Shown here in pieces: positions 12,029-14,097 of a stretch of DNA of 63,425 nt (positions within the stretch are counted from its first letter, which is position 1; each line of letters starts with the position of its first letter). Both the position numbers and the translations under genes were made by a program. The notes below the pieces were generated by a model that worked only from the letters and a program-made list of their open reading frames with translations, made no database searches and was not told the origin of the DNA. This DNA is from an uncultured Roseiflexus sp. (GTDB lineage: Bacteria > Chloroflexota > Chloroflexia > Chloroflexales > Roseiflexaceae): assembly GCA_937935075.1 (NCBI GenBank), contig CALGYB010000020.1, positions 1 through 63,425 of the forward strand, read 5' to 3'.

Positions 12029-13249
12029 TTAGCTGCGTGTGATCGTGATCTGCACCGATCCGTCCGACGCAGTCGAGAACTGAACCATCACCTCGTCCGC
12101 ATCTTTCTTGAACTCGAGGATGTAGCCGTTCTGAGCATCACCATACTCATATGTCAACTGGTATCCAAGTTTGGGATACTCAGTCTTGAAGAAGGTCAGG
12201 ACCGAGTCGATGCTGGCGTTCACCTTGCCCATCGTGGTGTTGGGCATTGCCATATCGACCTGTGTGCCTGACGGCAACGGCAGATCGACACCGACCGTTT
12301 GCCCGCTGCAAGCAGCCGGGAGGGTGATCGTCGTTTTGTTGATGTCTTCGAGCGACCAGTTGTAGACAATCGTGCCTTCCGAAACCGGCATGCCGCCGCC
12401 AAGCATCTCGGACCAACCGGCAGTGTTGGATGTTACTTTGATCGTCAGGTCATACTTGACCAGATAGCCGCCATCGCGGGCCACCCAGAGATCGGCCTTT
12501 TCCACTGTGGCGCCGAACTGATTGATCGTCTCCTGATCGAGCGTGTAACGATCCGTCAGTATGCCGTTGACCGTTTCGTCACGATTGACGAGTTGCGCCG
12601 AGCCGGTCTGAATCGGGGCGGTCATTGCGTCGGCAATGCCGCGCAGCATGTCGCCCATGCCGGTCATCATACCTGGTTGACAGAGTTCTTTCCCATCCTG
12701 ACGCTGGTAGACATACAGCGTATCACCGACGCTGTAGAGTTCCGATTGTGTCGATGGCGCACCCTGTCTGTTCTCGACGATCAGGGTATAGCCGGTCTTG
12801 CTTGGTCGATGCACCGCTTGCGTGTAGGTTGTCTGCGACTCGATAGTCTTACCATCTGTCGTTTTGCCGTTCATCTTCGACACAACGGTCATCCGGTAGC
12901 TCTCGAGTTGGGACAGGTTCGCCTGGCTTTGCGGCAGCGGGATCGTTTCTCCGCCGCCTGTGGCGGGCGCCGCAGGAGTGCCGCCGCCTGTGGCGGGCGC
13001 CGCAGGAGTGCCGCCGGTTGGCGGGGGGGCGACGGGTACTGTCTGTGCCGGGGGATTCGCCGGCGCCTGTGTTGGTTGTTCAGCGGCGCGGGTTGGTTGC
13101 GCGGCAGGCGTTGAAGCATTACCGGAAGCAGCCGCTGGAGAAGCGGTTGGTTGCGCATTTCCCTGCGAAAGGAAAGGCAGATTGCCGCATCCGCCGATGG
13201 CGAGCGCGCCAATCAGCAGTATTATGACGAGAAACGCTTGGGATTTCAA
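12029..13249 (-). CDS. Hypothetical lipoprotein
   Basis: I start this at a TTG with a strong AAGGAGG 6 nt upstream, giving 406 aa and a clean lipoprotein signal (hydrophobic LVIILLIGALAIGGC, lipobox Cys21). A low-complexity Pro/Ala/Thr/Gly linker (about 25-105) contains two exact copies of a 10-residue GGGTPAAPAT-type unit. The folded part (about 110-406) has alternating beta-like strands with QTTYTQAVHRPSKTGYTLIV and a C-terminal domain near YPKLGYQLTYEYGDAQNGY. It loosely recalls LppX/LolA-type lipid-binding beta shells, but I cannot assign a family. It is surface-anchored and has its own terminator. Confidence 0.8.
   Translation of the reverse strand: MKSQAFLVIILLIGALAIGGCGNLPFLSQGNAQPTASPAAASGNASTPAAQPTRAAEQPTQAPANPPAQTVPVAPPPTGGTPAAPATGGGTPAAPATGGGETIPLPQSQANLSQLESYRMTVVSKMNGKTTDGKTIESQTTYTQAVHRPSKTGYTLIVENRQGAPSTQSELYSVGDTLYVYQRQDGKELCQPGMMTGMGDMLRGIADAMTAPIQTGSAQLVNRDETVNGILTDRYTLDQETINQFGATVEKADLWVARDGGYLVKYDLTIKVTSNTAGWSEMLGGGMPVSEGTIVYNWSLEDINKTTITLPAACSGQTVGVDLPLPSGTQVDMAMPNTTMGKVNASIDSVLTFFKTEYPKLGYQLTYEYGDAQNGYILEFKKDADEVMVQFSTASDGSVQITITRS
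12951..13010 (-). repeat. Perfect 30-bp tandem duplication inside the lipoprotein linker
   Basis: Positions 12951-12980 and 12981-13010 are identical. They keep the reading frame and add ten residues of Pro/Ala/Gly linker. Confidence 0.95.
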
Positions 13250-13371
13250 TGATTCCTCCTTGTCAGTTGTTGTGATATGACGAATCAGATATCGCGCGAT
13301 ACCGGGTGTTTCCCCATAATGAGACACCCAAATAAATGAACGGAAGAAGTGGCGGTTTTAGGCAATCCCGA

Positions 13372-14097
13372 TCATCGAATTCCGGCGCGCCGCATATATT
13401 CCAGCACACCGGCGGGACCGATCTGTGCTTCGAGCGTCAGCATGCGTTCGAGGAGCGGGCGATAGGGGTGGTTCGATTCGCGCATTGCGGCAGCGGCTTT
13501 GTGGCAGCCGAGGTAACTGAGGTGACGGTACGCCACCCATTCGGCGAACCCCTCGATCAGGTCGTGGTCGTCGAGGAGCGGGCAGTTCTCACCCTGCCAG
13601 GCATGGGCGTATTCGTGCGCAACGACCGTGCGGAAAAGCAATTTCGGCAGCCCGTAGAGCATGTAAATGACACGCAACCGGCCGTGGCGCTGATACAATC
13701 CCAGCGCCGGCGCCTCCCCCGACAGCGGTGGTTTGTCCTGTGACCGCACTGCTGCCAGCGTCGGCGCATCCACCAGCCGAAACTCGACCCCGACCCGCAA
13801 CGCCATGCCGAGTTGGGCAATAATTGCGGCGACGGTTTCATCGAACAACGTCCGCGCAACATGTGGATCGTAAATGGCCGTTGCGTGGCATGCTTCGCAC
13901 AGACGCCGGCCGTCGTGCAGCGTCCAGTAGCGGTTGCCGAGCGGCGCCGAGCAGACATCGCAACGATCGCGTTCGCGGATGCAGCGCGCGCAGTAGCGTT
14001 CGCGCCGCCCATGGATGAAGTAATACCCGTCAATCAGCGGTGCACCGCACGCTGCACAACGGAGCGTGTCGGGAATATCGGGGGCGCGACCGGACAT
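13372..14097 (-). CDS. LIM-like zinc finger / DA1-like zinc metallopeptidase
   Basis: I start this 241-aa protein at the ATG at 14097. Residues about 12-70 hold four CxxC pairs (CAAC, CARC, CDVC, CEAC) spaced like a LIM or treble-clef zinc module. The C-terminal half carries HEYAHAW, an HExxH zinc site, with the third ligand region EGFAEWVAY about 20 residues later. The stretch around YGLPKLLFRTVVAHEYAHAW resembles the peptidase of plant DA1, which has GLPRLL before HEMMHAW and EGICQ after it. DA1 is a LIM-containing protease that acts on growth regulators; the bacterial role is unknown. No signal peptide, so it is cytoplasmic. It lies alone between the lipoprotein and sirtuin genes. Confidence 0.8.
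   Translation of the reverse strand: MSGRAPDIPDTLRCAACGAPLIDGYYFIHGRRERYCARCIRERDRCDVCSAPLGNRYWTLHDGRRLCEACHATAIYDPHVARTLFDETVAAIIAQLGMALRVGVEFRLVDAPTLAAVRSQDKPPLSGEAPALGLYQRHGRLRVIYMLYGLPKLLFRTVVAHEYAHAWQGENCPLLDDHDLIEGFAEWVAYRHLSYLGCHKAAAAMRESNHPYRPLLERMLTLEAQIGPAGVLEYMRRAGIR

Follow-up and report, generated by a model that had tools for sequence, protein, structure and literature searches.

A predicted DA1-like zinc peptidase with a LIM-like finger in Roseiflexus, and its relatives in the Chloroflexota

The closest described counterparts of the gene considered here are the DA1 peptidases of plants and a set of predicted proteins from its own bacterial genus. In Dong et al. (2017; PMC5322733), the C-terminal region of the DA1 family is described as highly similar to predicted proteins of Roseiflexus sp. 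bearing four CxxC/H pairs, with citation of Burroughs et al. (2011). The same paper gives the active site of plant DA1 as HEMMHX15EE, and reports that the C274Y substitution, which affects a cysteine of the third CxxC pair in the LIM-like module, abolishes peptidase activity. The DNA analysed here, referred to below as the window, is a stretch of 63,425 nucleotides from an uncultured Roseiflexus sp., and it contains a gene whose product shares with the published protein the genus, the four CxxC/H pairs and the C-terminal similarity to DA1, while belonging to another Roseiflexus species. Since the genome G166, of the same genus, contains one PF12315 (DA1-like) gene and no further LIM match, the published protein is almost certainly the orthologue of the protein in the window. 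The resemblance between Roseiflexus proteins and DA1 is already in print and its discovery is not new; what is added here is the near-universal and usually single-copy occurrence of the gene in Chloroflexales, the failure to detect ubiquitin, E2 or Pup, the lack of a conserved lysine, and the finding of a VWA neighbour in two clades.

The first-pass annotation, made from the letters of the window, had recognised an open reading frame at 13372-14097 and, within it, four CxxC pairs followed by GLPKLL, HEYAHAW and EGFAEW, and had proposed a DA1-like peptidase. The frame was placed correctly, and the 241-residue translation contains all of these elements in the claimed order, with the cysteines paired as C14/C17, C36/C39, C46/C49 and C67/C70 (Table 1). 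Profile searches gave matches both to Pfam LIM (PF00412; 33.8 bits against a cut-off of 22.9, E=4.2e-8) and to Pfam DA1-like (PF12315; 27 bits against a cut-off of 25, E=3.4e-6, over just 64 profile positions), and because both exceed the Pfam gathering scores, chance can be ruled out as the source of the motif set. The protein had zero matches in NCBIfam. The PF12315 match, together with the predicted fold described below, upholds the proposal overall: the product belongs to the DA1-like family, as a small bacterial protein that bears a LIM-like finger and is predicted to be a zinc-dependent peptidase.

Table 1. Features of the DA1-like gene and its predicted product, in positions of the window
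Feature	Positions	Strand	Basis
DA1-like peptidase CDS, 241 aa + stop	13372..14097	-	translation of the window (ATG at 14097, stop at 13372); Pfam LIM and DA1-like
LIM-like zinc-finger module, residues 14-70	13888..14058	-	eight invariant Cys; spacing count; full-length profile alignment to LIM-like module and peptidase of plant-type proteins
Predicted gluzincin peptidase domain, residues 76-241	13375..13872	-	AlphaFold; VIA-align to 2gtq; PF12315 at residues 138-201
GLPKLL motif, residues 149-154, start of active-site helix	13636..13653	-	conservation; predicted helix 152-171
HEYAH putative zinc-binding/catalytic motif, residues 161-165 (HEYAHAW from 161)	13603..13617	-	H161, E162 and H165 invariant
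EGFAEW, residues 182-187	13537..13554	-	E182 and G183 invariant; HExxH-x16-E spacing; E182 the expected third zinc ligand
Y212, candidate transition-state-stabilising tyrosine	13462..13464	-	invariant column; role by analogy with the gluzincin family

The AlphaFold model (pLDDT 91.5, pTM 0.87) was matched best by VIA-align to M1 aminopeptidases, with Z 11.5 for 2gtq (144 residues aligned within the peptidase domain, rmsd 2.6), and after these to ACE and MATCAP, so that the C-terminal domain is predicted to adopt a gluzincin fold, as expected of a DA1-like peptidase, and not an unrelated one. Foldseek alone gave weak PDB matches, mostly to ACE2 and other gluzincins, of which the best (E=0.028) was not significant, and sequence searches of the PDB returned no DA1 entry. 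The model was also aligned over 167 residues (Z 9.5) to PDB 3cmn, the Chloroflexus aurantiacus "putative hydrolase with a novel fold", which may on this structural comparison be a gluzincin relative. The enzymes of family M1 have HExxH-x18-E spacing, and carry a GxMEN motif that binds the free N-terminus of the substrate. Assignment as a plain M1 aminopeptidase was rejected, as PF01433 reached 22.4 bits and fell short of its cut-off of 27.7, the third ligand stands at x16, a spacing shared by the window family and the plant-type Chloroflexota proteins described below, and GxMEN was not found in the window protein. The absence of GxMEN fits an endopeptidase, and by analogy endopeptidase activity is proposed.

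In a canonical LIM domain two residues separate the zinc-binding halves. The finger of the window protein has instead the spacing C-x2-C-x18-C-x2-C-x6-C-x2-C-x17-C-x2-C, and the aligned relatives all conform to C-x2-C-x17/18-C-x2-C-x6-C-x2-C-x17-C-x2-C, with x6 between the halves in 22/22, so that despite the PF00412 match the spacing rules out a canonical LIM. This refines the earlier description: the four-pair module probably corresponds to the second, LIM-like module of DA1. Proteins with the full plant-type layout, LIM followed by LIM-like module and peptidase, occur in Chloroflexota family f24 (L001-L010, L012, L013) and in one Chloroflexales genome (L011). Their first module has the x2 linker of a canonical LIM; their second reads CxxC-x16/17-CxxH-x6-CxxC-x15..20-CxxC and precedes the peptidase. 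The window-family profile aligns at full length to this second module plus peptidase (for example over positions 1-224, E=6.6e-24, in G293), the plant-type proteins differing by their additional N-terminal canonical LIM, and on the strength of this alignment the window protein matches, in sequence, DA1 stripped of its UIMs and canonical LIM. Comparison by hhalign confirmed the homology of the two families (99.4%), in a register that matched CxxC pairs one and two to the later half of the canonical LIM and so placed the finger ambiguously. Because the full-length profile search and the spacing were judged the better guide, the window finger is likely to be equivalent to the second LIM-like module of DA1, and it is expected to hold two zinc ions. 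Among bacterial layouts, that of the plant-type loci L001-L013 comes nearest to plant DA1: given their canonical LIM in front (in L001:1018-1935 of G293 its best PDB match is paxillin, 2.7e-17) and PF12315 scores of up to 66 bits, these proteins look closer to plant DA1 than the window protein does. One Chloroflexales genome carries both the plant-type and the window-type protein (loci L093, on G260:C157, and G260:C124:15376-16053), which hints at transfer between lineages.

A single scan with a nucleotide pattern found relatives at 49 loci in bacterial genome contigs. Across an alignment of 22 sequences, with identity down to about 32%, all eight finger cysteines are invariant, as are H161, E162, Y163, H165, A166, W167 and Q168 (the HEYxHAWQ motif), E182, G183, A185, W187 and Y212, together with G149 and L150 of GLPKLL, in which P151 is almost so. 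Purifying selection on the gene is strong: dN/dS lies at 0.04-0.07, with values of 0.067, 0.057 and 0.044 against three close Roseiflexaceae relatives. Strong matches to the family profile were obtained in 35/40 Chloroflexales genomes, usually in single copy, and the profile also matches Anaerolineae-type and other Chloroflexota families; this has the look of a core gene passed on by vertical descent. A plasmid-borne origin was set aside after a plasmid collection gave no match, and a role in anti-phage defence likewise after PADLOC gave none. Outside the Chloroflexota, relatives from Omnitrophota and Acidobacteria (L073, L075, L076) have extra CxxC finger repeats and, in some, N termini that look by eye like hydrophobic signal peptides, so that members of the DA1-like family may not all share one function and location. 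A relative in a Bacillota MAG (L079:5671-6351) lacks any zinc finger and has a hydrophobic N terminus. Another, L070:5896-6689, is split between two frames and reaches 66% identity in its best segment; its contig bears the label Gracilibacteria, and the case is probably one of a mis-binned Chloroflexales contig or of a frameshift.

Taken together, the reading that we favour, at somewhat better than even probability, is that of a cytosolic DA1-like zinc metallo-endopeptidase that depends on its finger and is switched by a partner, independently of ubiquitin. In the predicted gluzincin domain, H161, H165 and E182 would hold the catalytic zinc and E162 would serve as the catalytic residue. The first finger cysteine has just 13 residues ahead of it, which leaves no room for a signal peptide; the protein would act in the cytosol. 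The two-zinc LIM-like module preceding the peptidase, presumably the counterpart of DA1's second finger module, would bind a protein partner or the substrate, and would also be needed structurally for activity, for which the plant C274Y mutant is counted in support. Partner binding, rather than ubiquitin, would switch the activity on or off, and the enzyme probably cleaves a small number of specific cell proteins, in a regulated way, within a conserved core function.

The first alternative is a peptidase for general housekeeping or scavenging, with no specific activation, in which the finger would only stabilise the fold or hold zinc. The usual single copy and near-universal presence in Chloroflexales would suit such a role, as would the ordinary company that the gene keeps: a UvrD helicase, a QTMAN glycosyltransferase, prfB and SIR2. 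A UvrD-type helicase gene lies downstream in 14 Chloroflexales loci; in the window itself the gene is divergent from that for SIR2, and is followed on its own strand by a gene with only a sub-threshold BclA_C match and then by an HD-domain gene. (The neighbouring gene at 12029-13327, minus strand, has a lipoprotein-like start and contains a short tandem repeat, at 12930-13010, coding TPAAPATGGG.) However, a LIM-like finger with eight invariant ligands points to a binding role, and plant DA1, in the paper cited above (PMC5322733), needs its LIM-like module for activity, and we regard the housekeeping alternative as unlikely.

Somewhat more doubtful is the proposal that a signalling module controlled by phosphorylation has the peptidase as its output, in which a VWA protein encoded by the adjoining gene would bind it, and a Ser/Thr kinase, a PP2C phosphatase and an FHA protein would set its state in place of ubiquitin. 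Five Anaerolineae loci, closely related to one another, have a VWA gene directly after the peptidase gene, in two of them (L069, L071) with a one-base overlap; four of the five also have genes for PP2C, STPK and an FHA-ABC transporter upstream, the fifth contig starting just before the peptidase gene. A VWA homologue is also the adjacent gene in L034 and L038, while L108 has one downstream and L041 one nearby. The association is absent, on the other hand, from most other clades. The genome of the window does retain a VWA homologue (E=1.6e-100; G000:C104:6907-8241), but on a separate contig and amid unrelated genes, and VWA/PP2C/STPK clusters are common enough here to appear in 1/20 control regions. 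VWA/STPK/PP2C linkage as a family-wide rule was accordingly rejected, with only two clades showing it, and because the link is clade-limited, is broken by contig in the window's own genome and has a counterpart among the controls, it is no more than suggestive. That such a switch represents an older form of phosphorylation control, for which plants substituted ubiquitin after gaining the gene from bacteria, seems improbable.

There remains a switch like that of plants, in which a ubiquitin-like conjugation system of the bacteria would activate the protein. The earlier statement that bacteria lack ubiquitin agrees with the result that neither ubiquitin nor E2 families gave a match in six genomes, although these two negatives are weak, control genomes having been silent too; Pup also gave no match in the six, with a control that worked. 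Prok-JAB proteins were present in 6/6 of the genomes tested, but JAB-domain proteins are common in bacteria (8/14 control genomes match), the alignment has no conserved lysine column and the aligned Chloroflexota family sequences only 0-5 lysines each, and the window protein has neither a UIM match nor space for one ahead of its finger, so that a ubiquitin-like switch of the window protein is unlikely and activation by such a conjugation system very improbable indeed.

The bacterial relatives of DA1 are small and do not have the ubiquitin layer, and could thus reveal how the LIM-like module serves the peptidase; they could also yield the first experimental structure for the family, and they bear on the origin of a plant growth regulator. 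Since a Roseiflexus relative was already published, the gain lies in a tractable model and in the distribution of the family.

Set beside the M1 aminopeptidases and other gluzincins, the window protein would share the catalytic fold (predicted, with Z up to 11.5) and a motif of the HExxH...EGF type; it differs from the M1 enzymes in the shorter spacing to the third ligand, in lacking the motif for the free N-terminus, in being far smaller, and in its extra zinc finger. With plant DA1 and DAR it has in common a LIM-like module followed by a predicted gluzincin peptidase, the GLP motif and HExxH-x16-E, which equals the published HEMMHX15EE if the second glutamate of the plant sequence is the ligand. 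Compared with the plant proteins, its PF12315 score is modest and covers few profile positions, UIMs and a canonical LIM are both missing, and it carries only one four-pair module ahead of the peptidase.
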